A DNA stretch of 64,000 nucleotides, taken from positions 1 through 64,000 of IMG/VR virus record IMGVR_UViG_3300021963_000001; one strand, 5' to 3'. Below, piece by piece: positions 2,122 to 21,800 of the stretch (position 1 is its first letter; each line of letters starts with the position of its first letter). A program made the position numbers and the translations under genes. The notes under the pieces were generated by a model that saw only the letters and a program-made list of their open reading frames with translations, did not search any database and was not told where the DNA came from. The DNA is from a virus.

Positions 2122-2611
2122 CGAACGATTCACCGTCATCAAGGACACGCGAGAACAGGACGGCTGGTCTTTCGGGGCGGGCAAGTCCTGCGCTGGCATG
2201 GACATTGGCACATTGAAGACCGGCGACTACACCCTCCGGGGCTATGAGAGTATTCTCACGATTGAACGCAAGGGTTCCGTGGCCGAATTCGCAGCCAACA
2301 TCACGCAGGATAGGTTTGTCCGCGAACTCGAGCGCATGCGAGAGTATGAGTTCCCCTTCATGGTGCTGGAGTTCACCATGGATGACATCATGCGCTTCCC
2401 CTACGGGGCCGGCCTGCCCAAATCCAAAATCCCCTTCGTCCGCGTGCGCGGCCCCTTCATCCTGCGCCGCCTCATGGAATTCCAGATCAACTACCCCGTG
2501 AAGATCATCCTCGCCGGACGCCACGGGATGGATGTCGCCCACCATATCTTCCGGAGAGTCATCGATGCCAAGTCACACCAAGGACCAGGACCGGATCAAG
2601 CGGCTGATTGA
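2114..2611 (+). CDS. ERCC4/XPF-type nuclease
   Basis: A 165-residue single-domain protein with the ERCC4 (XPF/Mus81-like) nuclease signature: an aspartate in VIKDTREQDGW, then GDYTLRGYES, then the catalytic core ILTIERKGSVAEF (ERK motif), followed by QDRFVRELERM. These restriction-like nucleases cut branched or forked DNA. Located between the candidate small and large terminases, it may resolve branched replication intermediates so that DNA can be packaged, a role played by endonuclease VII in T4. Start is GTG at 2114, overlapping the upstream stop. Its C-terminus overlaps the terminase start by 47 bases. The nuclease call is confident; the link with packaging is inferred from position. Confidence 0.85.
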   Translation: MSDERFTVIKDTREQDGWSFGAGKSCAGMDIGTLKTGDYTLRGYESILTIERKGSVAEFAANITQDRFVRELERMREYEFPFMVLEFTMDDIMRFPYGAGLPKSKIPFVRVRGPFILRRLMEFQINYPVKIILAGRHGMDVAHHIFRRVIDAKSHQGPGPDQAAD

Positions 2612-4721
2612 GCATGCCTGGCTCCTCTCGGAGCAAGACCTGGCCCATGTCACCCCTACTACCCCGGTCGATCAGTTGGAGAGCCTCCTCGCCCTTCCCG
2701 TTGACGCTGTCCACCCTTTGCGAAGCATAGGACATAGGGAAATCCAGCCCGAAGACCTCATCCGGGTGATGAGGAATCCAGACTATTTCCCGTTCACCTG
2801 CAAGCTGCTGATGGGCATCGACATCATGCCGTTCCAGCATGTGATCCTGCGGGAACTCTGGCGGCGACCGTTCCCGATGTTGATCGGTTCGCGTGGTTTG
2901 GGAAAAAGCTTCATTCTGGCGCTTTACTCCATGCTACGCCTGGCCTTCACGCAAGGTTCAAAGGTCGCAGTCATCGGCGCATCGTTCCGGCAGTCGAAGG
3001 TCATCTTCGAGTACATGGAGAAGGTCTGGGCCGATGGGGCCGTCTTGCGTGATCTGTGCGGGACAGGCAAGGGGCGGGCCGGTCGTGAGCAGGGGCCGAG
3101 GCGCGACATTGACCGCTGCGAGATGATCATCGGCGATTCGGTTGGTATCGCAATCCCGCTGGGCAACGGCGAGAAAATTCGCGGTCAGCGTGCGAATTAC
3201 ATTGTGGTGGACGAATTTGCGTCGGTGCCCGAGGACATTTACCAGAATGTGGTCCGTGGTTTTGCTTCGGTGAGTGCCGATCCGGCCTCCGGGGTACGGC
3301 ACCAGGCTAGGGTCCAGTTGTTGAAAAAATTGGGACAATGGACCGAAGAGGATAGCCAGGCCGAAGCCCGGATCATGCGGTCAAACCAGAACATCATCTC
3401 CGGCACCGCCTATTACTCGTTCAACCACTTCTACAAGACCTGGAAGACCTACAAGGCGTTCATCGAGAGCAAGGGCGACCGCAAGAAGCTGGAAGAAATC
3501 TTCGATGGCCCGGTGCCCGAGGGCTTCGACTGGCGGGACTTCTCGATCATCCGCATCCCGGTGGACATGTTGCCGAAAGGCTTCATGGATGAAAAGCAGA
3601 TTTCCTCTGCCCGCGCCACCCTCTCCAAAAGCAACTACATGATTGAGTTCGGGGCTTCTTTTGCCACGGACTCCGAAGGGTTCTTCCGGCGCAGCCTGAT
3701 CGAGTCGTGCGTGGTCGGCAGGCCAGCCAGCCCCATTGAGATCGATGGCGAGACCGTGGAATTCTCGGCCTCCCTCATGGGCGATGATGTCCCCCATGTG
3801 ATTGCTGTTGACCCGGCGTCCGAAAGGGACCGCTTCTCCGTCGTCGTACTGGCTCTCTATCCCACCCACCGAAGGCTTGTTCATTGCTGGACGACAACGA
3901 GGAAGAGCCACAAGGAGCGACTCAAGAAGGGCGTGGTCAAAGAACAGAACTTTTACGCCTTCTGCGCCCGCAAGCTGCGGGAACTCATGCTGGCCTTCCC
4001 GAATGTCGAAGTCCTCGGCTGCGACTCCCAGGGCGGCGGCGTGGCGGTGGAAGAGTCTCTGCACGACTTGCAGAAGCTACACGAAGGTGAAACTCCTATA
4101 TGGAGAGAAATCGATCCTGATCCAAAGAAATCTAAAGATAGCGATGGCAAGCCAGGATTACATATTTTGCGCATGGTTAACTTTGCTGATGGCAAATGGC
4201 TAGCAGAAGCTAACCATGGTTTACGCAAGGATTTGGAAGACAAGATTCTCCTCCTCCCCGCTTTTGATTCGGCCCAATTGGGTCTCGCCTACGAGGAGGA
4301 CATTGCCGCCGGTCGCATTGTACTGGAAGACGGGGACGAGATCAGCCTGTACGACACCCTTGAAGACACGGTCATGGATATTGAAGACCTCAAGGATGAA
4401 TTGGCTAGCATCGTCCACTCCGAGACGGCCGGCGGGCGGGAGCGTTGGGATGTCCCCTCCAGCAAACTGCCCGGCTCCAAAGCGGGCAAGCAGCGCAAGG
4501 ACCGCTACTCGGCCCTGCTGATGGCCAATTCCATTGCCCGTGGCATCCAGCGCACCGATGCTCCCCCGGAATACCACCCGGTGGGCGGCTTCGCAGACGC
4601 CGTCAAGGACGCTGAGGGCGATCTCTACATCGGCCCCTCCTGGTTCGTGGAGGCCACCCGTGGCGACTACGGAGCGGCGGTGGGTCGGGACGGTGTAGAA
4701 CTAGCAGACCCAACTGCATAG
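2565..4721 (+). CDS. terL: Terminase large subunit (packaging ATPase and nuclease)
   Basis: A 718-residue DNA-packaging motor. The ATPase half has Walker A GSRGLGKS (108-115) and Walker B YIVVDEF (catalytic D216/E217). The nuclease half has AVDPAS (D416), GCDSQGGG (D487) and KDRYSALL (D646), the spacing expected for an RNase-H-like headful or cos nuclease. The ATG at 2565 follows GGAG at 2553-2556; an in-frame upstream start lacks a site and lies inside the ERCC4 gene. Its last codons contain a CGGTGTA element (4691-4697) that may drive the portal gene. A stretch at about 4090-4225, in the nuclease domain, is distinctly AT-rich compared with the rest of the gene. Catalytic residues are intact. 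Confidence 0.95.
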   Translation: MPSHTKDQDRIKRLIEHAWLLSEQDLAHVTPTTPVDQLESLLALPVDAVHPLRSIGHREIQPEDLIRVMRNPDYFPFTCKLLMGIDIMPFQHVILRELWRRPFPMLIGSRGLGKSFILALYSMLRLAFTQGSKVAVIGASFRQSKVIFEYMEKVWADGAVLRDLCGTGKGRAGREQGPRRDIDRCEMIIGDSVGIAIPLGNGEKIRGQRANYIVVDEFASVPEDIYQNVVRGFASVSADPASGVRHQARVQLLKKLGQWTEEDSQAEARIMRSNQNIISGTAYYSFNHFYKTWKTYKAFIESKGDRKKLEEIFDGPVPEGFDWRDFSIIRIPVDMLPKGFMDEKQISSARATLSKSNYMIEFGASFATDSEGFFRRSLIESCVVGRPASPIEIDGETVEFSASLMGDDVPHVIAVDPASERDRFSVVVLALYPTHRRLVHCWTTTRKSHKERLKKGVVKEQNFYAFCARKLRELMLAFPNVEVLGCDSQGGGVAVEESLHDLQKLHEGETPIWREIDPDPKKSKDSDGKPGLHILRMVNFADGKWLAEANHGLRKDLEDKILLLPAFDSAQLGLAYEEDIAAGRIVLEDGDEISLYDTLEDTVMDIEDLKDELASIVHSETAGGRERWDVPSSKLPGSKAGKQRKDRYSALLMANSIARGIQRTDAPPEYHPVGGFADAVKDAEGDLYIGPSWFVEATRGDYGAAVGRDGVELADPTA
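4691..4697 (+). promoter_or_regulatory. CGGTGTA element (candidate late promoter) before portal
   Basis: ACGGTGTA inside the last codons of the large-terminase gene, 38 bases before the portal ATG. It is one of seven copies placed before structural genes. Promoter function is inferred. Confidence 0.45.
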
Positions 4722-4735
4722 GGAATGCAATCCAA

Positions 4736-6802
4736 ATGAGCGAGAAGAAGCCACTCTTTGTCACCGCGGACCAAGCCGACCAGGCTTATCGGGACGGGGA
4801 GGTGATCCAGCACAGGACCACAGCTGGCAACACTTTCCGCAACATCAGCCAGCCCAATGTGTCGGTGCGGGAAGGCTTTGACCGCCGCGACTACGACTTC
4901 TTCCGGCCCGGCGAACAGATTCCAACCAAGGATGTGGACATCATCGGGGCCTGCATGCAGGCCTACGACCGCATCGGCATCGTCCGCAACATCATCGACA
5001 TGATGAGCGAGTTTGCCTGCCAGGGGATTGACCTAGTCCACCCAAACCCCCGCATCGAGAAGTTCTTCAAGGAATGGTTCAACAAGGTCAACGGCAAGGA
5101 GCGCACCGAGCGCATCCTGAACATGCTGTTCCGTGCGGGCAATGTGGTCATCAAGCGTTCGACGGCCCGTCTGGCCGATGAGGACGCCGCCGCCCTCCAG
5201 CGTGGCAAGGCAGCCGATGTCAAGCCGGACATTGCAAAAGCGCCCGACCCCATGGAAATCCCGTGGGAGTACACGATCTTCAACCCTCTTTCCGTTGACG
5301 TATTCGGTCAGGAGTTGGCTCCTTTCCTCGGCACCAAGTATTTCCGGTACGGTGTCCGGGTCTCCGAGGTTGTCAGCAAGAAGATCAAGAAACCCGAGGT
5401 CACCATCGAGAAGCAGATGATGACCAAGCTGCCTCGGGAGGTGTTGAACCTAGCCCGTCAAGGTGGCAAGCTCATCCCGTTGCCGCCCGAGAAGACGGTG
5501 GCCATCTACTACAAGCGGGACGACTGGCAGGTCTGGGCGCGACCCATGACCTACGCCATCCTTGAAGACCTGATCATGCTCCGCAAGATGAAGCTGGCCG
5601 ATCTGGCTGCGCTGGACGGTGCAGTTTCCTATATCCGTCTGTGGAAGCTGGGTTCTCTCGACCACCGCATTCTGCCGACCGAAGCGGCGATTGCCCGCTT
5701 GGCCGACATGCTGATGAACAATGTTGGCGGTGGCTCCATCGACCTGATCTGGGGGCCGGAGCTTCAGCTTCAGGAAACCTCGACCGACATCTCCAAGTTC
5801 CTGGGCGAAGAGAAGTACCGTCCGATCCTCAACAACATCTTTGCCGGACTGGGAATACCGCCCGGATTGACGGGCCTGCCCGCCCCTGGCGGCTTCGGCA
5901 ACAACTTCATCAGCCTCCAAACGCTGGTCGAACGACTCCAGTACGGGCGTGACCTGCTGATCCGATTCTGGGCCAACGAGGTTCGCATCGTACAGCAAGC
6001 CATGGGCTTCCGCTTGCCAGCACAGGTGGTCTTCGACCAGCAAACTCTCACGGACGAGGCCGCCCAGCAGCGACTGCTGATCGACCTCGCCGACCGCGGT
6101 CTCATCTCCGACGAGGCCCTCCAGGAACGGTTCGGCCTCATCCCCGAGATCGAGCGTGTCCGCACCCGCCGCGAGGCCCGCATGCGAGACAATGGCAATC
6201 TCCCCGCCAAGGTTGGCCCGTTCAACGCCGACACGAAGGAAGCGGTCAAGAAAATCTTCGCCCAGAACGGATACATGACCCCAGAGGACTTCGGCATCGA
6301 GGCATCCGGCCAGCCCAAAAATGCGGGCGGTCAGCCGGTGTCCGAAGAACTCAAGGGTCAGCCTGGACAGGGTCGCCCGCCCGGCTCGACGGATACCCAG
6401 CCACGACAACGGCGGGAAGTCAAGCCGGAGAAACCCGCCCAGGCCGAATATGCAGCCGCCTTTGTGTGGGCCGACTCTGCCCACCGCCAAGTCTGCGAGT
6501 TGACCCAGCCAGCTTACCTGAAGAGCATCGGCAAGAAGAACCTGCGCGAGGCCTCCTCGGAAGAGATCGCCGCTCTGGAAGAGTTCCGCTTTGCCGCCCT
6601 GTGCCAGTTCTCTGTCGGCGATGAGATCACCAAAGAGAAACTCAAGGAAGTGCTGTCGAAGCCGATCACCGTGCCCGCACCGGTCCAGGCACTCCACAAG
6701 GAAACTCTCTCCAAGTTCGTTCAGCAAAAAGGCTCCATGCCAACCGCAGAAGAACGCCGACGGATAGAAGCCTCTGTTTATGCGGTTTATTCCTGCCTGT
6801 AA
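4736..6802 (+). CDS. Portal protein
   Basis: A 688-residue protein following the large terminase, as portals do. Residues 60-130 (RNIIDMMSEFACQGI, FRAGNVVIKRST) and 330-410 (PPGLTGLPAPGGFGNNFISL then ERLQYGRDLLIRFW) match the portal pattern of a clip/stem region followed by a long helix. It forms the dodecameric ring at one capsid vertex through which DNA passes. The C-terminal 150 residues beyond about 520 begin with a Gly/Pro/Gln linker and a helical tail, longer than in compact portals, possibly a crown or barrel. The ATG is at 4736 with GGGAATG upstream. Start and family are well supported; exact subfamily is not resolved. Confidence 0.85.
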   Translation: MSEKKPLFVTADQADQAYRDGEVIQHRTTAGNTFRNISQPNVSVREGFDRRDYDFFRPGEQIPTKDVDIIGACMQAYDRIGIVRNIIDMMSEFACQGIDLVHPNPRIEKFFKEWFNKVNGKERTERILNMLFRAGNVVIKRSTARLADEDAAALQRGKAADVKPDIAKAPDPMEIPWEYTIFNPLSVDVFGQELAPFLGTKYFRYGVRVSEVVSKKIKKPEVTIEKQMMTKLPREVLNLARQGGKLIPLPPEKTVAIYYKRDDWQVWARPMTYAILEDLIMLRKMKLADLAALDGAVSYIRLWKLGSLDHRILPTEAAIARLADMLMNNVGGGSIDLIWGPELQLQETSTDISKFLGEEKYRPILNNIFAGLGIPPGLTGLPAPGGFGNNFISLQTLVERLQYGRDLLIRFWANEVRIVQQAMGFRLPAQVVFDQQTLTDEAAQQRLLIDLADRGLISDEALQERFGLIPEIERVRTRREARMRDNGNLPAKVGPFNADTKEAVKKIFAQNGYMTPEDFGIEASGQPKNAGGQPVSEELKGQPGQGRPPGSTDTQPRQRREVKPEKPAQAEYAAAFVWADSAHRQVCELTQPAYLKSIGKKNLREASSEEIAALEEFRFAALCQFSVGDEITKEKLKEVLSKPITVPAPVQALHKETLSKFVQQKGSMPTAEERRRIEASVYAVYSCL

Positions 6803-6824
6803 TTGACCAATCCCCCACCCTCCC

Positions 6825-6831
6825 CGGTGTA
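6825..6831 (+). promoter_or_regulatory. CGGTGTA element (candidate late promoter) before protease/scaffold
   Basis: CCCCGGTGTAAAAA in the 54-base gap between portal and protease genes, 25 bases before the next ATG. A TTGACC lies about 16 bases upstream, but the other copies have no such partner. Promoter function is inferred. Confidence 0.55.
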
Positions 6832-6856
6832 AAAACCGAGGGAGGCTTAGCAAACC

Positions 6857-8272
6857 ATGGAAATCGCCGTTTATAAAGCAGAACAGGAAGCCGGTCTGGA
6901 AGAACAGATCAGGGCCAATGCTTCCGTTGCTTGGCAGTCCGATGTCCAGCTTTGCGATGCCTTTGACCTAGGCAATGCCAAGGCCAACCTCCTGCCCGAA
7001 CACGCCACGGCAGAGAACAAAAACCAGATCGATCTCCACTACCTGCGCACCATCATGGTGACCTCGGCGTGGAACCTGAACGACGATGTCTTCACCCCCC
7101 ACGAAATGTGGCTGGCCCGGGCGACCCCGGAAGACAAGCCGTTCAACTACATGCACGAGCAGCACGACATCATCGGCCACATCACGAATGCCGTTGCCGT
7201 CGATGACAGCATGCAGCCGATCCCGGAAGAAACCCCCGCCGACAAGCTGCCCGAACACTACCACATCGTCACCAATGCCGTTCTTTACAAGTTCTGGGAG
7301 AAGCCGGAACTGCAAGAGCGGATGAACAAGCTCATCGCCGAAATCGCTGAGAACAAGTGGTTCGTGTCGATGGAAGCCTTGTTCTACGGCTTCGACTATG
7401 CGTTCAAGACCGCCAAGGGTTGGCAAATCATTGAGCGCAACGACAAGACGGCTTTCCTCACCAAGCATTTGCGCGTCTACGGCGGCAAGGGCGAGTTTGA
7501 GGGTAAAAAGCTAGGCCGCGTGTTGCGGCGGATCGTGTTCTCCGGGAAGGGACTCGTCAGTAAGCCCGCCAACCCGGAAAGCGTAATCCTCGAGGCCAAC
7601 AAGGCTTCGGGGTATGAACTTCCCAGAGAGGAGACTCACACCATGAGCGTTGAAATTGAAACTGTCCAGGCCGAAGCCGCCGAGGCCAAGGCAAAAGCCG
7701 AACAGCTGGCCACCGAGTTGGCTGCCGCCAACGAGAAGCTGGCCCAGGTCGAAGCCGAGAAGCGTCTGGCCCGCCTGACCGCTTCCGTCGCCGAGAAGCT
7801 GGAAGCCGACGCCGTTCACGCTTTGGCTATTGCCACCGCCCTGTCCGGCCTGACCGACGAGGCCTTTGAGGCCGCTGTCGCCAGCGCCAACGAGTACATG
7901 GCCGCCAAGCTTGCCGCCTACAAGGGCCAGTCCGAGAAGGTGAAGGCTGCCGAAGACCTGACCGCCACCGTGGAAGCCCTCAAGGCCCAGGTGGAAGAGT
8001 TGAAGAAGATCGCCGCCGAAATCACCCCCGCCCCCAAGGGTCTCGGTGACGCCAACCCGCCTAAGCCAGCACCCGTGATGTCCATCCCCATGGACAAGGG
8101 CGCTATTCCCCCCGAGGCCGCTCCTGTTGTGGCCGGGGTTCTCGACAAGGTCATTCCGAGCGAGGAGCCGGCCCTCGCCGACCCCGCAGCCAGCCCTGTG
8201 GTGAACAAGGTGGCTGCTCAGATCGCTGCGTTCTTCAACGCAGACGAGACTGAAAGCCCGGAAGCCGAGTAA
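6857..8272 (+). CDS. Prohead protease fused to scaffold
   Basis: A 471-residue protein. Residues 40-250 resemble HK97/T4-type prohead proteases: FNYMHEQHDIIGHI supplies candidate histidines (H100, H103) and WFVSMEALFYGF a candidate serine nucleophile (S171). The C-terminal half from residue 263 is a highly charged helical/coiled-coil segment rich in Ala, Glu and Lys, typical of scaffolds, ending in a Pro/Ala-rich tail. A strong internal ribosome-binding site and ATG at 7643 would produce the scaffold part alone from the same frame, as with lambda C/Nu3. The gene lies between portal and capsid, where maturation proteins belong. The protease call rests on position and the H/S pattern; a pure core protein is the alternative. 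Confidence 0.75.
   Translation: MEIAVYKAEQEAGLEEQIRANASVAWQSDVQLCDAFDLGNAKANLLPEHATAENKNQIDLHYLRTIMVTSAWNLNDDVFTPHEMWLARATPEDKPFNYMHEQHDIIGHITNAVAVDDSMQPIPEETPADKLPEHYHIVTNAVLYKFWEKPELQERMNKLIAEIAENKWFVSMEALFYGFDYAFKTAKGWQIIERNDKTAFLTKHLRVYGGKGEFEGKKLGRVLRRIVFSGKGLVSKPANPESVILEANKASGYELPREETHTMSVEIETVQAEAAEAKAKAEQLATELAAANEKLAQVEAEKRLARLTASVAEKLEADAVHALAIATALSGLTDEAFEAAVASANEYMAAKLAAYKGQSEKVKAAEDLTATVEALKAQVEELKKIAAEITPAPKGLGDANPPKPAPVMSIPMDKGAIPPEAAPVVAGVLDKVIPSEEPALADPAASPVVNKVAAQIAAFFNADETESPEAE
7625..7634 (+). promoter_or_regulatory. Internal ribosome-binding site AGAGAGGAGA
   Basis: A near-perfect purine-rich Shine-Dalgarno with AGGAG nine bases before an in-frame ATG (7643), within the protease/scaffold gene. 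It falls exactly at the boundary between the globular and coiled-coil halves, so an internal translation start is likely. Confidence 0.65.
7643..8272 (+). CDS. Scaffold protein from internal start
   Basis: A 209-residue product starting at ATG 7643 in the same frame as the protease/scaffold gene. It begins MSVEIETVQAEAAEAKAKAE and stays helical and charged to about residue 130, then has a Pro/Ala-rich tail. Separate scaffold made in excess from a nested gene is established for lambda (Nu3 within C). The supporting evidence here is the strong site at 7625-7634 and the domain boundary. It would fill the procapsid during assembly and be removed or cleaved by the full-length protease. Confidence 0.65.
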   Translation: MSVEIETVQAEAAEAKAKAEQLATELAAANEKLAQVEAEKRLARLTASVAEKLEADAVHALAIATALSGLTDEAFEAAVASANEYMAAKLAAYKGQSEKVKAAEDLTATVEALKAQVEELKKIAAEITPAPKGLGDANPPKPAPVMSIPMDKGAIPPEAAPVVAGVLDKVIPSEEPALADPAASPVVNKVAAQIAAFFNADETESPEAE

Positions 8273-8300
8273 GTTTCTCACCCACAAGGAGACGAGAGAG

Positions 8301-8765
8301 ATGGCACTGAAACCTGATCGTCACATTCTGGAGACCGACATCTCCCTCGTGTGCAATGACGTCCACGAGAAGGGAGCTGTTCTGGTCTACAGCACCGCGT
8401 CCAGCGGCACGGGGCTTTACACCCCGGGCGTTGCGACCGTTGCCGCCAACCCCTCCGGCAAGGTTCCCGCAGGCGTCAGCCTGGCGGCCTTTGTCAACAT
8501 CGACCAGACCCGCCAGAAGAGGAACTTCCAGCGCGATGAGCAAGTCATCGGCGAGAAGGCACCCCTGCTGAAGAAGGGCTGGGTGGTCACCGACATGATC
8601 GTGAGCGGCCAGGCTGCTTCCATCGATGCTGGTGTGACCGCTTACCTCGGCGCCAGCGGCAAGCTGACCACCGTGGCCAGCACCAACCCCGTTGTCGGCC
8701 AGTTCGCCAACAAGGTGGACGCCGAAGGCTTCGTGAAGGTCTACATCGACCTCCCCGCAGTCTAA
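8301..8765 (+). CDS. Candidate head decoration/stabilisation protein
   Basis: A 154-residue protein immediately before the major capsid gene, preceded by AAGGAGACGAGAG. It is predicted to be beta-rich (KGAVLVYSTASSGTG, WVVTDMIVSGQ, GFVKVYIDLPAV), with no charged coiled coil. Its codon use is GC-rich and uniform, as in the capsid gene, suggesting high expression. Small beta proteins in this position, between scaffold and capsid, are usually capsid decoration or stabilisation proteins. I do not recognise a specific family, so the call is positional plus compositional. Confidence 0.6.
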   Translation: MALKPDRHILETDISLVCNDVHEKGAVLVYSTASSGTGLYTPGVATVAANPSGKVPAGVSLAAFVNIDQTRQKRNFQRDEQVIGEKAPLLKKGWVVTDMIVSGQAASIDAGVTAYLGASGKLTTVASTNPVVGQFANKVDAEGFVKVYIDLPAV

Positions 8766-8796: not shown

Positions 8797-9816
8797 ATGA
8801 AGAAGCCCAGTGATGAGATGGTTGGCCTGCTGAAACGAGCCGGCGACCATGGTTTCGAGACCGCCAGCGCAGCTCAGCATGAGCTGGCCAAAGCCCTCAC
8901 CCTGCCCCTGCGTCAGGGCATCCTGAAGGGTGACATCGTCAGCGGTATCTACCAGCCGATTTACTTCGCGCCTGGCACCGCTGTTGAGTTCCCCCTCGAC
9001 TTCTTGGCCCCCGGGACCGAGAAGGACTTCGTGGCCTACACCGTGCCTGCTCAGGGTCGCATCCCCGAGAAGCATGTGAGCGGTGACTTCGTGATGGTTC
9101 CGACCTACGAAGTGGCCGACTCCATCGACTTCGCCCTGAAGTACGCCCGCGACGCCCGTTGGGACATCGTCGGTCGCTGCATGCAGGTGCTGGAAGCGTC
9201 CTTCGTCCGCAAGATGAACGACGACGGCTGGCGCACCATCCTGTCGGCTGGCAACAGCCGCTCCCTGGTGGTGTACGACTCGGCCGCCACCCCCGGCCTG
9301 TTCACCAAGCGCCTCGTGGCCCTGATGAAGACCATCATGCGCCGCAACGCTGGCGGTAACAGCACCTCGGTGAACCGTGGCGCTTTGACCGACCTGTATG
9401 TCAGCCCCGAAGCCATGGAAGACATGCGCTCTTGGGACCTGAGCCAGGTCGATGACTTCACCCGCCGGGAAATCTTCCTCGCCGGCACGGGCAACGAAGA
9501 GTACGGCCTGACCCAGATTTTCGGCGTGAAGCTGCACGATCTGGACGAGCTGGGTGTGGGTCAGGACTACCAGACCTACTTCACCGGCACCCTCGGTGGC
9601 TCCCTGGACTTCGGCAGCGGCAACGACGAGAAGCTTGAGCTTTGCGTCGGCCTCGACCTGTCCAAGGACGACTCCTTCGTGATGCCCTGGCGTCAAGAGA
9701 TCGAAGTGTTCGAGGACCCCACCTTCCATCGTCAGCGTCGCGCTGGCTTCTATGGCTTCGGTGAGTACGGCTTCTCGATCCTCGACAACCGTCGGGTTCT
9801 GCTGGGCGCCCTGTAA
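8797..9816 (+). CDS. Major capsid protein (HK97-fold candidate)
   Basis: A 339-residue protein with a strong AAGGAGACAG site, the most GC-biased codon use in the head block, and a transcription terminator directly after it. An N-terminal helical arm (1-40) is followed by an extended loop and the long helix DARWDIVGRCMQVLEASFVR, consistent with the HK97 spine helix. Later EEYGLTQIFGVKLHDL and SFVMPWRQEIEVFEDP are typical of the A-domain region of phage capsids. Position after protease and decoration gene supports the call. There is no obvious large N-terminal delta domain, consistent with a separate scaffold. Confidence 0.85.
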   Translation: MKKPSDEMVGLLKRAGDHGFETASAAQHELAKALTLPLRQGILKGDIVSGIYQPIYFAPGTAVEFPLDFLAPGTEKDFVAYTVPAQGRIPEKHVSGDFVMVPTYEVADSIDFALKYARDARWDIVGRCMQVLEASFVRKMNDDGWRTILSAGNSRSLVVYDSAATPGLFTKRLVALMKTIMRRNAGGNSTSVNRGALTDLYVSPEAMEDMRSWDLSQVDDFTRREIFLAGTGNEEYGLTQIFGVKLHDLDELGVGQDYQTYFTGTLGGSLDFGSGNDEKLELCVGLDLSKDDSFVMPWRQEIEVFEDPTFHRQRRAGFYGFGEYGFSILDNRRVLLGAL

Positions 9817-9905: not shown

Positions 9906-10172
9906 ATGAATGCCTACCGGATCGTCACTCGAATCCAGGATCAGGACGACTTCAGCGGCGTCCCGCAGTCCGGTCAAGTCGTTTACTTTGATTCCTCTTC
10001 CGGCAAGTTTGTTCCCGCCGACCTCCTGCCTCTTATCCCCCCTGTGGGCAGGACTCTTGCTGGCTTAACGGACGTTCAGGTGGTGGCCCCATCGGGCAAT
10101 GACGTCCTCATGTACCGCTCTGGCGACCAGAAGTGGATGAACGAACACATTCTTGACGGAGGCAACTGGTAA
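9906..10172 (+). CDS. Small fibre-block protein of unknown function
   Basis: An 88-residue protein preceded by GGTGGAGG. It contains SGQVVYFDSSSGKFVP and LAGLTDVQVVAPSGNDVLMY, phrases of the type found in phage tail-fibre repeats ('L..L.DV.v..p..g..L.y') that mark short beta repeats. It may be an adaptor or a trimming of a larger fibre's N-terminal domain. Its TAA overlaps the next ATG by one base (TAATG), so the two are likely translated together. Function otherwise unknown. Confidence 0.6.
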   Translation: MNAYRIVTRIQDQDDFSGVPQSGQVVYFDSSSGKFVPADLLPLIPPVGRTLAGLTDVQVVAPSGNDVLMYRSGDQKWMNEHILDGGNW

Positions 10173-11665
10173 TGGCTAACACGATCAGAATCAAGCGCAG
10201 GACATCGGGCCAGGCCGGTGCGCCGTCTTCGCTTTACAACGCCGAGTTGGCTTTCAACGAGGTGGACAAGGTACTCTATTACGGCTTCGGCACGGGCGGG
10301 GCGGGTGGAACCGCAGGCTCGGTCATCGCCATTGCGGGCGAGGGCGCCTTCCTGCCGTTGTCGGGCGCCGGTACTGCTACTCTGGGCAAAGCGGTCAATT
10401 TCACAGGCACCGTGGACTTTCAGGGCACCACCACCGCTCTGACCGTCACCGCTGCGGACAACTCCACCAAGGTCGCCACCACCGCCTGGGTGAAGAACCA
10501 AGGCTATCGTACCGGCAACGAAACCATCAATGTCTTCGGGGACGCCACTGGTTCGGGCACGACTTCGATCACGGTGACTTTGGCCAATACCGGCGTGACC
10601 GCCGGGACCTACACGAAAGTCACGGTCAACTCCAAAGGCCTTGTCACCTCGGCCACCACCCTGGCCGCTTCCGACATTCCGACTTTGACTGCGTCAAAGA
10701 TTTCGGACTTCGACACGCAAGTCCGCACCAGCCGTCTCGACCAGATGGCCGCTCCATCGTCGTCGCTGAGCCTGAACAGCCAGAAGATCACCAGTCTGGC
10801 CGATCCGACCAACGCCCAAGATGCTGCCACCAAGAACTATGTGGACTCCACGGCGCAGGGACTTGACCCCAAAGCTTCTGTCCGCGTTGCCACCCAATCG
10901 AACCTGAACCTGTCATCGCCCGGCTCGACCATCGATGGTATCACGATGGTTTCCGGCGACCGCGTGTTGGTCAAAGCCCAGACAACGGCCTCCGAGAACG
11001 GTATCTATATCTACAACGGCTCGGCCACCGCCCTGACCCGCGCCTCCGACGCCAACAGCACCAGCAACCTGACCGCTGGCGCCTTCGTCTTCGTCGAGGA
11101 AGGCTCCGATTCAAGTGCCGGTTATGTGTTGCAGAAGCCTGCCGGCTCCTATGTACTGGGCACGAGCAGCCTGACCTTCGTCCAGTTCAGTGGCACCGGC
11201 CAGATCACGGCTGGCGCAGGTTTGACCAAGACCGGAAACAGTATCGATGTGGTCGGCACCGCCAATCGCATCACCGTCAACGCTGACAGCATCGACATCG
11301 CCAGCACCTACGCTGGCCAGAACACCATCACCACCGTTGGCACGATTGCCACAGGCACCTGGAACGGCACAGTCGTTTCGGTCTCCTACGGTGGCACGGG
11401 CGCATCAACCCTGACCGGCTACTTGAAGGGCAACGGCACCTCGGCATTCACCGGCTCCTCGACCATCCCCGGCTCCGACATCACCGGCAACATCTCCGGG
11501 AACGCCGCCAATGTCACCGGCACCGTGGCCGTGGCGAATGGCGGTACTGGAGCCACCACGCTGTCGGGTATTTTGAAAGGGAACGGAACTTCGGCGATTA
11601 GTGCAGCGACTGCTGGCACCGATTATCTGGACCCCAACAGCACCCTTGATGGCGGCAGCTTCTAA
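10172..11665 (+). CDS. Tail fibre protein with shared 200-residue module
   Basis: A 497-residue fibre-like protein. The N-terminus MANTIRIKRRTSGQAGAPSS, then LYNAELAFNEVDKVLYYG, is the phage fibre motif that starts many short fibres. Residues about 165-375 carry the module SRLDQM, LNSQKITSLADPTNAQDAATK, GLDPKASVRVAT, DGITMVSGDRVLVKAQTT, also present in the gene at 13849. The C-terminal part is Gly/Thr/Ala-rich repeats ending GTDYLDPNSTLDGGSF. It lacks charged coiled coils and is predicted to be beta-strand rich. Host-surface binding is the likely role. TAATG coupling on both sides. Confidence 0.75.
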   Translation: MANTIRIKRRTSGQAGAPSSLYNAELAFNEVDKVLYYGFGTGGAGGTAGSVIAIAGEGAFLPLSGAGTATLGKAVNFTGTVDFQGTTTALTVTAADNSTKVATTAWVKNQGYRTGNETINVFGDATGSGTTSITVTLANTGVTAGTYTKVTVNSKGLVTSATTLAASDIPTLTASKISDFDTQVRTSRLDQMAAPSSSLSLNSQKITSLADPTNAQDAATKNYVDSTAQGLDPKASVRVATQSNLNLSSPGSTIDGITMVSGDRVLVKAQTTASENGIYIYNGSATALTRASDANSTSNLTAGAFVFVEEGSDSSAGYVLQKPAGSYVLGTSSLTFVQFSGTGQITAGAGLTKTGNSIDVVGTANRITVNADSIDIASTYAGQNTITTVGTIATGTWNGTVVSVSYGGTGASTLTGYLKGNGTSAFTGSSTIPGSDITGNISGNAANVTGTVAVANGGTGATTLSGILKGNGTSAISAATAGTDYLDPNSTLDGGSF

Positions 11666-12312: not shown

Positions 12313-13859
12313 TGCCAAAGAGAATCGACCAGCTTGGGGATCGCGCACCGGTCAACAATGATTGGGTGGTTTCCACGATCACCAGCGGCCCGGCTACCCG
12401 CTCCCGGCTGTACCAGCTGATCCGCAACGGCCTCGACCAGTCGGTGGACACGGGCGGCAACTCTTTACCAATCATCGGCCCCGAGAGAACCGTTACTGGC
12501 TCGGGCGGTCACATCCTGTTTGTCCCAGGCAAGAAGGCGGGTGGACCTGGAAACGCCCCCTCCGATTACTACGGCAGGGTTTACTTCGTCGCCTCGGGCG
12601 GCACCTCCCCGACCAACGCCGACTTCTACTTCGCCTTTGACACCGACAAGGTCCTGATTGTCTCCGGTCAGACAGGGTCGGGCAAGGCGATCCTCCTGCA
12701 AAGCGGCACAGCCACAGCCTGCTCGGTCCACATCGGCCAAACCCTATCCTCCGGCCCGGCGGTGGGGATCAGCGGGCCTCTTATTTCCAACGGGTTGTTC
12801 GTCAACGGCACGCAGGGCGTCTTCCAAGAAGACTTCTCCTCGTTTGATGTTGTCAATCCAAAGCTCCTCTGGCCCCGCAAGGTCTCCACGCTGGCCACCT
12901 CGGGTTCCGGTGCGCCCGATGTGGGCATTGAGCGGGCGTCCAAGGGCATCCTCAAGGTCACCGATGGATCGACCGGGGGCGGCTCCTTCTCGTCGCCGTC
13001 CTCCACAATCACCGTCTCCAGCGAGACCACCAACAATCTGGCCATCGGCTCGACCAGCTATGTCCGCCTGAATGTCACCATTTCCACGACTTTGACCGGG
13101 ATTGCCCCGCCCACCGATGGCAGTCACGCCGACGGCAGGAAGGTCAGCCTGTTCAATGTCGGCACAGCCAATATCGCCTTAGCCAACAACAACACCGGTA
13201 GCACGGCCAGCAATCGCCTCCAGGTCAACGGCACCCAGATAGTTCCCCCAAGTACAAGCGTGGACTTGACTTATGACTCGACGGTGTCGAGATGGGTCGT
13301 GTCTGGCGGCAGTTCGGGGGCCTCGGGAGCGCAGGGTTCTAACGGGGCCGTGCAATATGCCTCCGGGGGATTTCTTGCGGGAGCCACAGGTGTATTTACA
13401 GATGGATCGGACTTGCGAGTGCAGGGGCCGCTCCTGACCGGTTCAACGAACACGCGGTGCGGCCTCTATGTTGTCCACAAGCTGACCCAGTCGGCCACCC
13501 CGGAAAAGTTGACCACGGACGGGCAGGCGGTGACTGGCAGCAATCAGGTGATAATGCCTGATAACGCAACCTATCTCTTTGATATTCTTGTCAGCGCACA
13601 GCGCGAAGATGCTATCGGGGAGAGGGCGGCGTTCCGCTTTGAGGGGGTCGCCTTCCGGAATACCGGGGCGGCAACGGTAGACATCCTCATCGGTGGCGTC
13701 AGCAAAACCAGCATATCCAAGTCCGAAGTTCCCTGGGATGTCTCCGTGACCACGGACACAGCCAATGGGGCGATCAGCATTGTGGTAACCGGCGAGTCAG
13801 CCAAGTCCATTCGTTGGGTGGCCGCCGTCAAGACAGTCGAGGTGCGCCGTGCCAATTAA
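12312..13859 (+). CDS. Tail fibre protein with TG/W cap domain
   Basis: A 515-residue fibre-like protein. After a unique N-terminus (MPKRIDQLGDRAPVNNDWVV) comes a beta-rich region, then the module TDGSTGGGSF...LTGIAPP...DGRKVSLFNVGTANI, which recurs in the two giant fibres. The C-terminal cap (about 380-515, ending ESAKSIRWVAAVKTVEV) matches the caps of the genes at 11665 and 13849. It ends overlapping the next gene by 11 bases. Host recognition is the likely function; which polymer it assembles with is not visible. Confidence 0.7.
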   Translation: MPKRIDQLGDRAPVNNDWVVSTITSGPATRSRLYQLIRNGLDQSVDTGGNSLPIIGPERTVTGSGGHILFVPGKKAGGPGNAPSDYYGRVYFVASGGTSPTNADFYFAFDTDKVLIVSGQTGSGKAILLQSGTATACSVHIGQTLSSGPAVGISGPLISNGLFVNGTQGVFQEDFSSFDVVNPKLLWPRKVSTLATSGSGAPDVGIERASKGILKVTDGSTGGGSFSSPSSTITVSSETTNNLAIGSTSYVRLNVTISTTLTGIAPPTDGSHADGRKVSLFNVGTANIALANNNTGSTASNRLQVNGTQIVPPSTSVDLTYDSTVSRWVVSGGSSGASGAQGSNGAVQYASGGFLAGATGVFTDGSDLRVQGPLLTGSTNTRCGLYVVHKLTQSATPEKLTTDGQAVTGSNQVIMPDNATYLFDILVSAQREDAIGERAAFRFEGVAFRNTGAATVDILIGGVSKTSISKSEVPWDVSVTTDTANGAISIVVTGESAKSIRWVAAVKTVEVRRAN

Positions 13860-15819
13860 TTTTGATAAGAGTCCATCCGGGTCCATTACCCTCAAGGCGC
13901 CCTCCTCCGGCTCGGTCTCGCTGACCCTGCCATCAGCGGACGGCACCAACCGTCAGCTACTTTCGACCAATGGCTCGGGTACGCTCAGCTTCATCACGCT
14001 GATCGCCTCCGACATCCCGACGCTGACCGCGTCCAAGATCAGCGACTTCGACACGCAGGTCAGGACGAGCAGGCTGGATCAGATGGCGGTGCCAACCGCC
14101 TCGGTCAACCTGAACAGCCAGAAGATCATCAACCTGGCCACCCCCACCAACGCCACCGATGCGGCTAACAAGGATTATGTCGATAGCGTCAGCCAGGGGC
14201 TGGACCCGAAGAACTCCGTCCATGTCGCTACGACAACCAACCTGAACCTGTCCTCGCCTGGTGGCACAATTGATGGCGTCACCATGGTGTCGGGCGACCG
14301 GGTCCTGGTGAAGGATCAGACCACCGCCAGCCAGAACGGCATCTATGTCTGGAACGGTGCCGCTTCGGCCATGACGCGGGCCTCGGACGCCGACAGTGTC
14401 ACCAAGCTCAACGGCGGCGCCTTTGTCTTCGTGGAAGAGGGTACTACCTACGCCACCACAGGCTGGGTGCTGCAACAGCCGGTCGGCAACTATGTGCTGG
14501 GCACCACCGCCCTGACATGGTCGCAGTTCTCCGGCGCAGGCCAGATCACCGCCGGGACCGGCCTGACCAAGTCGGGCAACACGATTGCGCTGATCACTCC
14601 CGTCACCACGGCGAACGGCGGCACCGGCCTGACCACGGTCGGCACGGGTTTCCTGAAAGGCAACGGTTCTACCCTCAGCTACGCTACCCTCACCTCCGGT
14701 GATATCCCCGACCTGTCGGCCACCTATGTGACCCTGTCGGGCAACCAGACGATCTCGGGCATCAAGACCTTCTCAGCAGCTCCGATCCTCTCGACATTGA
14801 CCGGCTACCTGAAAGGCAACGGGGCCAGTGCCCTCACGGCCTCCTCGACTGTGCCAGCCTCTGACATCTCGGGCACACTGGGCGTCAGCAACGGTGGCAC
14901 CGGAGCCAACACGCTCACCAGCAATGGCGTGCTGTTGGGCAACGGCACCTCGGCCGTCCAAGCGACCGCCGCAGGAACTGCCAATCAAGTGCTGCGTGTC
15001 CCCGGGGCCGGTGGGGCACCCGCCTTCGGGGCCATCAACCTCGCCAGCACCTCGGCTGTCACCGGCACGCTCCCCATTGCCAACGGCGGTACGGGCCAGA
15101 CGGCGTTCGCCTCGGGCATCCTCAAGAGCGACGGCACCAACCTGTCCTCCGGGTCGCTGTCGGCGTCGGACATCCCCGACCTCTCCTCGACCTATGTCAC
15201 GCTGAACACAACCCAGACAGTCAACGGGGTCAAGACCTTTGCCAGCGGCATGTTGGTCAGTCAAATCGCCCCATCGGCCAACAACTACTTTGGCATCGGT
15301 GCTTCCGGCACTCCCCTTCGCCAGTTTGACATCTGGGTCGGCTCCAACAGCTCCAAGACCACAGACCTTTTTCCCTACAACACCTCGACCTCGTCCACTC
15401 CCGTGGACTTGTATATCGATGGTTCCAGCAATGTCATGGATTTGACCACCGGAGAGACTTGGTACTACGACGCCAGAGTTTTGGGAACCCAGACCGGCGG
15501 CACCTCGGGTACGGTAGGTGACAGCTTTGCGACCCGTTTCACGGGCGTGATCAAACGGTCTTCGGGCGGCACGACTGCGATGGTTGGATCGACCTCTCAA
15601 GATATCGATGCCCGCGACACCGGAGCAGCCAACTGGTCGGCCACCACTACCGCTGACACAGTCAATAACGCCCTGAAGATTTCCTGCACGGGCGAGGCCA
15701 ACAAGACCATCTACTGGCAGTCGAAAGTATCGTTGATCCGTGTTGGTACGCCAGCTGCTAGCGGCGGTGGCGGTGGCGGTGGAAGCGGCGCACCATTTTC
15801 TCCTCCCCCTCCAATTTGA
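13849..15819 (+). CDS. Tail fibre protein, duplicate module of the 10172 gene
   Basis: A 656-residue fibre-like protein starting at GTG 13849. Residues about 60-250 repeat almost exactly the module of the 10172 gene (TASKISDFDTQVRTSRLDQM, LNSQKI, QGLDPKNSVHVAT, DGVTMVSGDRVLVKDQTT). Then come repeats built on VANGGTG and LKGNGTS. The C-terminus is a further copy of the cap (SCTGEANKTIYWQSKVSLIRV) followed by a Gly run and a Pro tail. The two copies of the 190-residue module differ at many third codon positions, so the duplication is old and protein-selected. Likely adhesin or fibre shaft. Confidence 0.75.
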   Translation: MPINFDKSPSGSITLKAPSSGSVSLTLPSADGTNRQLLSTNGSGTLSFITLIASDIPTLTASKISDFDTQVRTSRLDQMAVPTASVNLNSQKIINLATPTNATDAANKDYVDSVSQGLDPKNSVHVATTTNLNLSSPGGTIDGVTMVSGDRVLVKDQTTASQNGIYVWNGAASAMTRASDADSVTKLNGGAFVFVEEGTTYATTGWVLQQPVGNYVLGTTALTWSQFSGAGQITAGTGLTKSGNTIALITPVTTANGGTGLTTVGTGFLKGNGSTLSYATLTSGDIPDLSATYVTLSGNQTISGIKTFSAAPILSTLTGYLKGNGASALTASSTVPASDISGTLGVSNGGTGANTLTSNGVLLGNGTSAVQATAAGTANQVLRVPGAGGAPAFGAINLASTSAVTGTLPIANGGTGQTAFASGILKSDGTNLSSGSLSASDIPDLSSTYVTLNTTQTVNGVKTFASGMLVSQIAPSANNYFGIGASGTPLRQFDIWVGSNSSKTTDLFPYNTSTSSTPVDLYIDGSSNVMDLTTGETWYYDARVLGTQTGGTSGTVGDSFATRFTGVIKRSSGGTTAMVGSTSQDIDARDTGAANWSATTTADTVNNALKISCTGEANKTIYWQSKVSLIRVGTPAASGGGGGGGSGAPFSPPPPI

Positions 15820-15828
15820 GAGTGAACA

Positions 15829-18800
15829 ATGGCAACTAGAGTAATAGCAGCCCAGGACAAAACCTCGTCGGGGGCGGGTGATGATGTCCAGATCAAGGCC
15901 GGTAATGCGAACACCAGCGGGGCTGGCGGCAGCATCATTATCCAGCCGGGCGCTCAGGCGACTACAGGCGGCAATGGCCTTTTGATTGTCCGCCAACCCA
16001 GCGGCGTGGCGGGGACGGACGAAATCCAGCTGTCGCACGATGGCGGCAAAGGCAGCGTCATCAACAAGGATGGCGTTTTGCAACTTGGCGGCAGCCACAT
16101 CGCTCTGAGGACTACCGCCAACAATGCCAAGACCAACCTGACCGCCGGGACCATTTATTGCGATGGACTCTATTCGTCCAATATCATCAACGCTGACGGC
16201 CAGACCAACGACAGTTATGGTTGGGCGATTGATGGAAATGGACCAAACTGGAACCAAGGCTTTAATCTGCGAGTAGGCTGGTCACACATCAAGGGGTATG
16301 CCAACTTCGGGCTGGCCTATACTGGCGACAACACGAATGGCAAAAAGGCCACCCTTGAACTGACAGACGGCAGTACGGGTGGTGGGGCCTGGGCCTATCG
16401 GTCGTCCACGACAACAGTCAACACTTCTTACAACGATCTGAATCTGGCCGGACACTCTGCGTTCCAAAGGCTGAACGCCACCGCAGCGACCACCATCACG
16501 GGGATCGCCCCCGCCTCTACGGCTGGTGGAGGCGTTTCTGGTCAACCCACCTGGGTTCACACCGATGGTCGTGTGTTCTGGCTGTACAATGTCGGCACCT
16601 TTAACATCACCATCGTAAACGAGAGCGCATCCAGCACGGCGGGCAACCGCATCACCACTCAAACCGGAGCCAATGTGGTTCTCGGCCCGGGCAGGATGAT
16701 GCAGATCGTCTATGACGGCACTTCTTCTCGTTGGCGTACCAGCGGTGAAACCTACCCGTATGTCTTCCCCACCACCGACGGCACCAACGGCCAGGTTCTG
16801 ACAACGAACGGAAGCGGCACGCTGTCGTGGACGACGGTCAGCGCAGGTGCCTCCGCAAGCGGCACGACCAATTACATTGCCAAGTTCACGGGGACTAGCA
16901 CGCTCGGCAATAGCCTCATATTCGACAACGGGACGAATGTCGGAATCGGTACGGCTACGCCGGGCGCAAAGTTGGAAATTCAAACGGCTGATGGCGCAGA
17001 CGCCCTCGCCATGTCTGGCTACAAAACAATGAAATGGGAGTCAAACAACCACCTTGTTTATGGTGGTTACTCCGCTGGCCAATGGCAGGTTCTAAAGTTT
17101 TACACTAATGGTTCAGAACGCATTAGGGTTGATGCAACAGGAAATGTTGGCATCGGCACGACTTCACCATTGGGTCGCCTTGATGTTGTTGGCGCCAATG
17201 TTTACGAACCAATTCGTGGTATTACGGATTCAGCTTCCAATTTAGAGTCTGGCTCCAATAACACTTTGGGTTTGTCGGTAAACAACAGCAACACAACCGC
17301 TGGCAATGGTATTGCTATTGGCTTTAATACGGCCACAACCAACTCCACTCTTTATGGGGTTGGCGCAATCGGGTTCAACAACTTAACCCACACTACTCTT
17401 GGCGTACCCCAAGGCAAATTCCAGGTGATCACACGGGATAGTGGTGGTGGTTTGACGCCGAAGTTGACTATCGATACTTCAGGCAATGTTGGAATTGGCA
17501 CGGCTTCGCCGAGCAACAACCTGTCCATTGGTGCTTCGGCTGGCAAGATTGGCTTTCAACGCGGTTCGGGGGACGGCGAATACTGCACCATCGGATTCAA
17601 ATCGACAACGGGCAATGATCGTTATGTCTTTGAGATAAATAATAGTTCGGGAACTGGCGAACTCAGGCTCAATCAGGGGGGAACCTCCACCCCCATCGGC
17701 ATGACCTTTTATACAAACAATTCCGAAAAGATGAGGATAGATTCTTCTGGAAATGTCGGCATCGGCACCACAACGATGAACGACACCCTAAATATTTATA
17801 ATACGACTTATCCCTACATTCGCCTGACCGGTAGCGTGGCCACTGCTGGTATGCGAATTGGTGTTGAATCAAACTCATTTGCCCAGGTCGGCGTTCTTCA
17901 AGCCAACATGCCCCTCACTTTTAGTACTTCGGGCACGTCTAACAACGGCTATTACGAAAGAATGCGGATTTCTCACGACGGACTCGTAGGAATTGGTTCT
18001 TCTTCGCCTGGTGCGAAGCTCCAGATAGACACCGGAGCAACCGGCACCAAAGGCCAAATCATCAAGGCTTTCCTTGGGCAGTCGGCGAATCTGTCGGAAT
18101 GGCAAAGCAGCACGGGCACAGTCCTCGCATCAATCGATTCTGCGGGGCGTATGACACTTGCGGCTGGGGCTGCTGCTTCAAACGCTGATTTGTATTTCAA
18201 TAACTCAGCCTCTGTAAATCCGGCCATCAAATGGAATAATGTATCCGCACAAACAGGCTTGAGATTTTATAGCGGCTCTAACCTTATTGCAGCCATTCAA
18301 GAAAATGGAGCAATAAGATCTACTTCTTTTCAGACTTGGGGAGGTGTGTACCTATCTGATTTTTCTGTGCAGCGTTCAGGCAGTGCTAGTATTTCATTTG
18401 GAGCAAGCGCATCTGAAGCTGGCGTAGAAATATCTAACGGAAGCAATTCTACTTTAGGCATAGCCTCAAGAATAAGCACTACTTACAGTGGCACTAAGGG
18501 TCTTGTTGTCAAAGGTGTGGCCTCGCAGACGGCCAACCTGACGGAGTGGCAAAACAGTTCAGGCACAGTCCTAGCCAGCGTTTCTTCTGCTGGACAGCTT
18601 AATCTTGGCACGGCTACTTCTGGTAGCAAGCAGTTGACAATTGCCAGCAATGCTGGCGATCCAGGGATTTTGATTTACAAATCTCCCGATGGCTCACTGA
18701 ATTCTTCGCAGTTGGTAGCTGGAATAGGCACCGGAAGCAGCTCAAGCAACACCGGAACTTCCGGAGGTTCCGAGTATGGCATAATCAATGTTTACCACAA

Positions 18801-21800
18801 CGGAACAGAAAGAGCTAGGCTGTATGCCTATGATGTAGGCACTGGGCAAACTGCTAACTTTGCTTTGGACCCATTCGCTTTTGGCGCAAACACATCGCTT
18901 GCCCAAGTTTATGTGACTCCAAAAACCAACGCTATTCCAGGCATAATTGTCAGAGGCAAGGCTTCGCAAACTGCCAACCTGACGGAGTGGCAAGACAGCA
19001 CTGGCACCGTGGTTGCGGCGGTAAGCCCTACGGGAGCCTTCACGGGTTCGTCGTTCACGCCCTACGGGACGTTTAACTCTACAACCACTATATTCGGGAA
19101 TAATTATTGGACCCCGAACTACACCGGAGGTGTCACCTCCCCTAGTGCTGGCACTTACACGAAGAGTACCGGCAATAATGCTTCGTGGGATGCTCAGGTA
19201 TATTCGTCCGAAGGCTACACAAAGAATGTCTACTGCGCAGCGCGTGCCTCGCAAACTAATGGCTATATCATGTTTGGCCTCAATGAAGATACGGCCAATT
19301 CAAGTTACAACACAATCGATTATGCTTGGTACTTTATCGGCGACGGTGGTAGTCTGAGCATTTATGAAAATGGCACTCAGTTTTCTGGTAGCTACGGAAA
19401 CTACACGACTTCTACTGTGTTGTCTATCACTTATGACGGAGAAAATGTTCGATACTGGAAAGATGGCGCCCTTATGCGGACGGTGGCTAGGTCAACGGGG
19501 AACCCGTTGTACTTCGACACCTCCTTCTATTCTGTCAGCGCCTCGCTGAACAGTGTTCAGTTTGGCCCCATCGGCCAGCCCTTTGGCATCTCCGGCACCG
19601 CCGGTTATCATCCGAAGTTCACGAGCCAACAGACGCTGGGCAACAGCATTGTCTACGACAATGGCACGAATGTCGGCATAGGAACAACTTCCACAACAGG
19701 TAAATTAACGATTGCTAATAATGGCAATCAACTTACTCTTAAAGCGTATGACGGGTCACAGAACAACACAGTAAGCTTTCAGGCTATACGCGCTAATTAC
19801 TCTGATGCTGCATCGGTTCTTGCTATCTACACAAATAGCGGCAGTTCTGAGAACGAACGCGTTCGCATTATGCACACGGGAGAAATGGGTATCGGCACCC
19901 AATCTCCTGGCGGTATGCTGGATGTCCAGCAATCCAACGCTGGAGATATGCTCGTCCGAGCATGGAACACTAGCACCGCAGGCACCGGGAAATCAATAGT
20001 CCGTATCGCCAACAGCGGCAACAATGCCCAGGGCCAGCAGATTCAGTTTTCGGACAACAACTATTACACGGGTACTGTTTCTTCTGACCGCACCAATGGT
20101 ATGTCTTTTTATGTCGGTCAGATGGCCACGCCGTTGGCCTCCGAACGGGTGCGGATTGACACATCGGGCAATGTGGGGGTTGGCGCAGGAGCAAGGATTG
20201 GCTCAGGAACCGGCTACATAAACGCCGGGGCGACGGCTGCTGGGTATCTGGAGCTTTACAACGCCACATCGGGCGCCACCACCCTGATGAACACGGGCGC
20301 CTTCAATGTTCTTGTGGGCACCAACAACACCGAACGCATCCGCGTGACTTCCAGCGGGTTGGTTGGTATTGGCACAAGCACCATTGCTGGCAATAACCCG
20401 CTTGCTGATCTTCATGTTAACGATGCAAGTGGGTACGGTTCTCTACAGCTGTCGCAGTCTCCAGCTGGAGCAACCATTGATACCGGCGGCGAAATTCAGT
20501 TTGCTGCCACCTATCGGTCAACTTCTGACCTCACCCAAGTCGCCCGTATCCGTGGCCTTCGGGAAAATGCGACCAACAACAACTGGGCTGGATACCTGGC
20601 GTTTTATACCTCGACAGGGTCGGACAATCCTTCGGCGTCTACGGAGAGGATGCGAATCAACTCCAGCGGCAATGTCGGCATCGGTACGGCTTCGCCGTCA
20701 TACAAGCTACAAGTAGATGGAGCTAGTGCTGACATAATTGTTGCCAACGCCACTTCTGGTTATGGTGCAATCGCTCTTTATTCTGCCGGAACAGCCAAGG
20801 CAACAATTGGCTATGCTGGTTCTAATGCGAATTATGGTAGTCAAACGGTTGCTGGCGACGTCTCTTTTAAGACCAACAACACCAATCTCCATATTGTAAA
20901 TGGCTCTGGCAACTCGGTTACTACTGCTTACTTTTCGTCAGCAGGAAATGTCGGGATTGGTAATGTCTCGCCCGGGGCGAGACTTCAGGTTGATACCGGA
21001 GCCACCGGCACCAAGGGTCAGATTATCAAGGCGGTTGCTTCGCAGACCGCCAATCTTTCAGAGTGGCAGAACAACAGCGGCACAGCTTTAAGCTATGTCG
21101 CAAGCAACGGCGATATTTATTCAACAACTTCTTTTGTTCATTACAGTTCAGGCAACTCTGGTTATTACCTAAAACGCCCGTCGGATAACGCTACTGTAGC
21201 TTCTCTCACATGGTCATCTGGTTCTATTGAAACTAATCTGTACGCATTGACTTTCTTGAATTTAGATTCAAGTGGTGCTGGTATCCGTATGGGTAGCTGG
21301 ACTACTTGGGCTGATTCCGTCAACGCTCAGGTTATGTGGCTGAAAAACAGCAACATTATTTGGGGCAACAACGCTCTCGGTGTTACCGGCAGAACAGCGT
21401 TCAACACTTCCGCTTTTCAGATTACAGCCGGAAGTTATGCCACCATCCCTGCCCCGACCTCGCGGTTTGAAGTGTACGGCGACTCGCAGTTCTTGAGCCA
21501 ATCGACATCGGCTAAGACAGTTATCGTCAAAGCTGCTGCTTCGCAGACGGCCAACCTTACCGAATGGCAGAACAACGGCGGTACGGCCCTAGCCTACATG
21601 GACGCCAACGGCAATTTCGCCGCCGTGACCAAGTCGTTCCTTATCCCCCACCCGACTCCTGCAAAGGCCGCTGAAGGCAAGAAGCTCCGCTACGCCTCAT
21701 TGGAAGGTCCAGAAAACGGCGTCTACTTCAGGGGCAGGCTGGAAGGGGAGAATGTCATCATCCTGCCGGACTACTGGGTTGATCTCGTTGATCCAGACAG

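Follow-up and report, generated by a model that had tools for sequence, protein, structure and literature searches.

A predicted protease-scaffold gene with a putative internal translation start in the head module of an uncultured virus

The window, the whole 64,000-nucleotide stretch analyzed here, comes from a virus record of 149,106 bases, and its head module opens on the plus strand. The features of that module are as follows.

2532..4721, plus strand: terminase large subunit (PF03237, phrog_2)
4736..6802, plus strand: portal protein (PHROG 2739, E 5e-8; its positional counterpart in Stills matches this PHROG too)
6841..6845, plus strand: Shine-Dalgarno (SD) sequence of the full-length product, GGAGG, with an 11-base spacer to ATG 6857
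6857..8272, plus strand: predicted prohead protease-scaffold fusion, 471 residues, open throughout (open reading frame and gene order)
6857..7597, plus strand: predicted protease domain, approximately residues 1-247 (AF2 model, fold matches and invariant columns)
7629..7633, plus strand: putative internal SD sequence, AGGAG, with a 9-base spacer (duplex energy -9.1; signal kept in relatives)
7643..8272, plus strand: putative nested scaffold reading frame from ATG 7643, 209 residues, acidic and predicted to be mostly helical
8301..8765, plus strand: putative small head protein gene, 154 residues (position only)
8797..9816, plus strand: probable major capsid protein, 339 residues (weak PHROG 3922 match, E 0.016, and position)

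The gene at 6857-8272 is thus found in the order terminase large subunit, portal, fusion gene, small head protein and major capsid protein, the capsid assignment being a weak one. From its position, the product of 8301..8765 is probably a head decoration protein; the equivalent place in SPbeta is occupied by yonC, which is annotated as a virion structural protein. The weak PHROG 3922 match and the position of 8797..9816 indicate that it probably encodes the major capsid protein, and no sequence match was observed between this gene and its positional counterpart in Stills. Among the window reading frames in the interval from portal to capsid, no second gene fits the role of a scaffold. Farther downstream, at 10172-11665, 13849-15819 and 15829-21972, lie tail-fibre-like reading frames with common segments and a reading frame of 2047 residues that contains repeats. 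A search of positions 1-64000 for tRNA and tmRNA genes found none.

The N-terminal half of the 471-residue protein was modeled with AF2 using residues 1-251 and 65 aligned relatives (pLDDT 88.2, pTM 0.82). The first model, that of the full-length protein, had been poor (pLDDT 54), with weak matches only. With VIA-align, the first match to the protease model is T4 gp21 (5jbl; Z 9.8, 137 residues, 3.1 Å), followed by the herpesvirus proteases at Z 9.2 to 6.0, and unrelated rows lie at 5.5 and below. In a Foldseek search against the PDB, herpesvirus proteases occupy every one of the first 20 rows, at modest E-values (0.016 for the best), and a library of predicted virus structures yielded 142 matches with E-values no higher than 0.001, of which several are named prohead protease. 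On the basis of these models, the protease half is predicted to adopt the T4 gp21/herpesvirus fold, a grouping made by fold and not by sequence. Indeed, a Pfam search with the window protein and the 65 relatives gave no protease match, neither S49 nor PF03420; hhalign comparisons with the single sequences of T4 gp21 and of Mu I were not significant; and no entry of Pfam, PHROGs or NCBIfam convincingly identified the window protein as a protease or a scaffold. His 100 and Ser 171 are invariant in the 65-row alignment and occur in the order usual for such proteases, and they are likely to form the putative catalytic pair.

Three further observations concern the protein and its relatives. A match of the window protein to PHROG 3270 (head maturation protease, E 0.0011) was not used, as it spans residues 232-384, which are mostly coiled coil. 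Seventeen of the 65 relatives match PHROG 27806 (best E 3e-5), whose name, DNA methyltransferase, is at odds with both the fold and the gene position and may be a mislabel. In one close relative (L006, 4242-5612; also L134, on the same contig), 15 residues, EGKKLGRVLRRIVFS, are missing in frame inside the protease, which represents either a natural variant or an assembly artefact.

The C-terminal half is acidic and rich in alanine, glutamate and lysine, with a length of 182-254 residues in 53 representatives of the family. The full-length model, at low confidence, places helices at residues 266-314, 319-329, 334-389 and 447-459. Family models from Pfam and PHROGs gave no match to this half. 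Its composition, its helices and its position are compatible with a putative scaffold role.

The original prediction held that an AGGAG positioned nine bases before an in-frame ATG falls at the boundary between a protease-like and a coiled-coil half, and the coordinates bear this out. The AGGAG is located at 7629-7633, and ATG 7643 follows ATG 6857 by 786 bases (3 x 262). This ATG is residue 263 of 471, and the short product that it would initiate has 209 residues, a mass of 21.4 kDa and a pI of 4.5. According to the models, the site is positioned within the linker between the last protease strand, which ends at residue 234, and the helix beginning at residue 266. With an energy of -9.1, ATG 7643 outscores every other ATG of the gene and ranks second of its 28 candidate starts overall, the only start scoring above it being TTG 8000 (-9.8). 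The two genes that follow have ribosome sites of similar SD energy, at -8.5 each. Taken alone, the internal site in the window sequence is unremarkable, for approximately one in seven control windows holds such a site. When the codons of the window gene were shuffled synonymously, the site did not exceed chance (p = 0.25). The mRNA around the start is no more open than at other in-frame ATGs (p 0.19).

Comparison in relatives, proposed beforehand as a check on the prediction, was more informative. Relatives were collected from scans of IMG/VR and GTDB, of which the best 80 of 592 confirmed were taken in one scan and the best 80 of 107 in another. The resulting 285 records, including the window, contain 284 protease reading frames; removal of 117 duplicates, eight frames cut by contig ends and five without a domain end left 154 distinct genes, of which 152 are fused and two are short. 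Of the 152 fused genes, 151 have a boundary in-frame ATG or GTG with an SD site of energy -6.3 or lower; in the remaining one, L122, the site is weak (-4.3). With the fused genes clustered at 70% identity, 55 of 56 representatives contain such a site, as compared with 13.4% of the 253 same-gene control windows and 14.2% of the 1224 taken from other genes. The control windows were 72 codons long, and the threshold of -6.3, picked after inspection of the data, was the same for them. Median site energies are -8.7 at the boundary, -2.7 in the same-gene windows and -3.1 in the other-gene windows. Of the fused genes, 136 have ATG at the internal start and 16 have GTG, and an alignment of 18 rows shows an unchanging internal methionine within a linker of varying length. 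A per-gene synonymous shuffle, conducted on 157 reading frames less 46 duplicates and three without a domain end, with a further two of the 108 dropped because their tails were too short, reached p < 0.05 in only 18 of 106 genes and is too weak to decide. Judged from the alignments and the control windows, the recurrence of the putative internal start across relatives is far beyond chance.

The peptide preceding the start differs by lineage, being REETHT in the window and LQEND, IGEFN, KEKDS or EGGVED elsewhere. The SD site occurs in two codon phases among the relatives, with spacers of 6 to 12 bases. When the residues of each gene were held fixed and its own codon use was applied, 9.3 of 53 representatives were expected to contain the SD core and all 53 do, with a combined p of 6e-11 that is conditioned on these 53 (three of the 56 representatives, which lack the core, were dropped) and counts clusters as independent. 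At 50% identity, where 15 representatives remain and 3.2 are expected to keep the core, the value is p 0.002. Because the upstream residues and the codon phase vary while the SD signal persists, selection, as read from these genes, is acting on the nucleotides of the putative internal start site.

A tblastn search of a phage isolate collection with the window protein and two relatives gave no matches. A search with the terminase did reach isolates at 22-30% identity, namely Microcystis phage MaeS, Slashvirus and SPbeta-like phages, and the examined members of all three groups display the same head gene order. By hhalign, the protease part of the window family matches that of Slashvirus and MaeS (PHROG 16389) with a probability of 95.7 and E 9.5e-9, and Slashvirus in turn matches the SPbeta YonD family (PHROG 3313) with a probability of 94.1 and E 1.2e-7. 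The direct profile comparison of the window family with SPbeta YonD was not significant, and the link runs via Slashvirus only. Candidate internal starts lie just after the protease part in Stills (ATG 184, -12.6, rank 1 of 11), Slash (ATG 183, -11.6, rank 1 of 11), MaeS (GTG 201, -11.7, rank 1 of 7) and SPbeta yonD (ATG 232, -12.8, rank 1 of 15). Among the 12 isolate sequences examined, 11 have the boundary start as their top-ranking site; in Geobacillus E3 it comes second, ATG 329 inside the coiled coil being stronger than the boundary ATG 198. The best boundary site of Alicyclobacillus KKP_3916 and of LC76P1 has TTG as its start codon, and that of Perkons is weak (-6.3). PHROG 3313 and PHROG 16389, whose members include L293 12192-13628, L324 3459-4895 (SPbeta yonD) and L291 11937-12959 (Stills33), are probably families of nested protease/scaffold genes. 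A literature search, by which absence is not proved, returned no description of the window gene family or of a nested start in yonD. As stated in a 2021 review, almost nothing is known about SPbeta virion assembly (PMC8270828).

Taken together, the conservation of the site, the lineage with separated halves described below and the annotated precedents support the original prediction of a protease and a scaffold in one frame with an internal start. We estimate a probability of roughly 90% that one gene with two translation starts on one mRNA specifies two proteins, a protease-scaffold fusion and the scaffold alone, a reading drawn from comparative sequence analysis. Ribosomes starting at ATG 6857 would produce the 471-residue fusion, and those entering at the AGGAG and ATG 7643 would produce the 209-residue scaffold. 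The short product would supply the bulk of the scaffold for assembly of the capsid protein, which is encoded two genes downstream. Since the scaffold domain is common to both products, the long one would be built into the same core at lower copy and would thereby carry the protease into the procapsid, where it would cleave the scaffold and head proteins. The two products, their ratio, their co-assembly and the cleavage are all inferred.

Another route to a free scaffold would be translation of the fusion alone, with the protease then cutting its own chain at the linker. The prohead proteases of SPN3US and phiKZ are reported to process their own C-termini (PMC5694885, PMC9026906), and the linker in the present family is long and variable. 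Self-cleavage requires neither an SD sequence nor a start codon, yet both are conserved. Further evidence against it is provided by the contigs L133 and L220, which come from different metagenomes and belong to one 70% cluster. In both, a stop codon follows the protease, and a separate scaffold reading frame with its own ribosome site begins 10 or 15 bases past the first base of that stop codon, at a place equivalent to the internal start of the fused genes. Both contigs end within the scaffold frame. Given that the stop codon separates the halves, the scaffold must be started independently there. Four other members of the 50% cluster that includes these contigs are fused, such that a natural switch between fused and split layouts is found inside one clade. 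Self-cleavage as the only source of the scaffold is thus quite improbable, and linker cleavage may occur in addition to internal initiation.

The short product might also arise from an mRNA of its own, transcribed from a promoter within the protease part and using the same SD sequence, as in the parallel case of herpesvirus UL26.5. No sigma-70-like promoter was found in 6700-8300, a weak test given that phage promoters may differ, and the SPbeta late cluster has been described as one polycistronic mRNA (PMC8270828). A separate transcript is, in our estimation, a slim prospect. It is very unlikely that the SD-like sequence, for all that it stands at a domain boundary, merely pauses ribosomes between domains for folding without initiating translation. 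Pausing needs no start codon at a fixed spacing, and yet in 48 of 56 representatives an in-frame start follows the linker site that pairs most strongly with the anti-SD sequence, as compared with 157 of 1699 control windows; in the other eight representatives the strongest site is not the one preceding a start. In addition, the lineages lacking the methionine carry GTG, another start codon (16 of 152). Lastly, that conserved residues happen to spell an SD sequence is conceivable for any single sequence, the window included (p 0.25), but it is scarcely credible for the family and is contradicted by the comparison, in which residues and codon phase vary and the core is kept in all 53 representatives against 9.3 expected.

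Two translation starts in one gene would provide a function for a gene without a name in the family libraries, in a group whose uncultured relatives number in the hundreds (a single scan confirmed 592). The profile link via Slashvirus to yonD makes the two-product prediction testable in Bacillus subtilis, a model organism.

With respect to known systems, Stills33, Slash_35, MaeS and yonD have in common with the window gene both the order of the head genes and a candidate internal start, preceded by a strong SD sequence, just after the protease part. The annotation of these genes is hypothetical protein, or virion protein in the case of the phi3Ts records, and their PHROGs are of unknown function. 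The lambda C/Nu3 pair, cited in the original prediction as the established precedent, stands as a parallel in design and not as a relative, because the protease folds differ: lambda C is an S49 protease (SppA/ClpP type), whereas the window protease has the predicted T4 gp21/herpesvirus fold. As in the window, nu3 lies within the 3' portion of C, in the same frame and with its own internal start (J02459), and C/nu3 is followed by the genes for a small head protein and the capsid protein. The internal site in lambda is weaker than that of the window (-6.9, rank 2 of 35). In Mu, the scaffold Z is likewise annotated as nested in the protease gene I (AF083977), with an AGGAG, a 9-base spacer and ATG 179 (-7.4, rank 1 of 16). 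Mu I differs in belonging to PF10123, which the window protein does not match. For the Mu-like phage PaMx73, a putative internal Val 177 start with a 9-base spacer has been reported (PMC4378225).

T4 resembles the window in the gp21 protease fold (Z 9.8) and in the order of protease, scaffold and capsid gene. It differs in that the scaffold, gp22, is encoded by a separate gene, and L133 and L220 display this T4-like split layout. The internal start of T4 gene 21 (-1.8, rank 3 of 6) gives a shorter protease rather than a scaffold; this alternate start is codon 23 in the sequence record and Met 45 in a published account, which also gives approximately 576 scaffold and 72 protease chains per prohead (PMC9026906). 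Such a ratio illustrates why unequal amounts of scaffold and protease matter.

Herpesvirus UL26/UL26.5 has the protease fold predicted for the window protein and, like the window gene, an in-frame nested scaffold with a C-terminus in common. The UL26.5 product is made from its own mRNA, the promoter of which lies inside the protease part, whereas the window gene has a putative bacterial-type SD start. It is conceivable, if doubtful, that a nested protease/scaffold gene was the ancestral means of scaffold supply in a wide tailed-phage lineage with the T4 gp21/herpesvirus fold, including aquatic uncultured viruses, Slashvirus and SPbeta, and that the split arrangements (T4 21/22, L133/L220) are derived. 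The UL26/UL26.5 layout would then have been inherited along with the protease and not reinvented. The arrangement itself is already known from lambda C/Nu3 and Mu I/Z; what is new is its predicted members, namely the uncultured group, the Bacillus megaterium phages and SPbeta.
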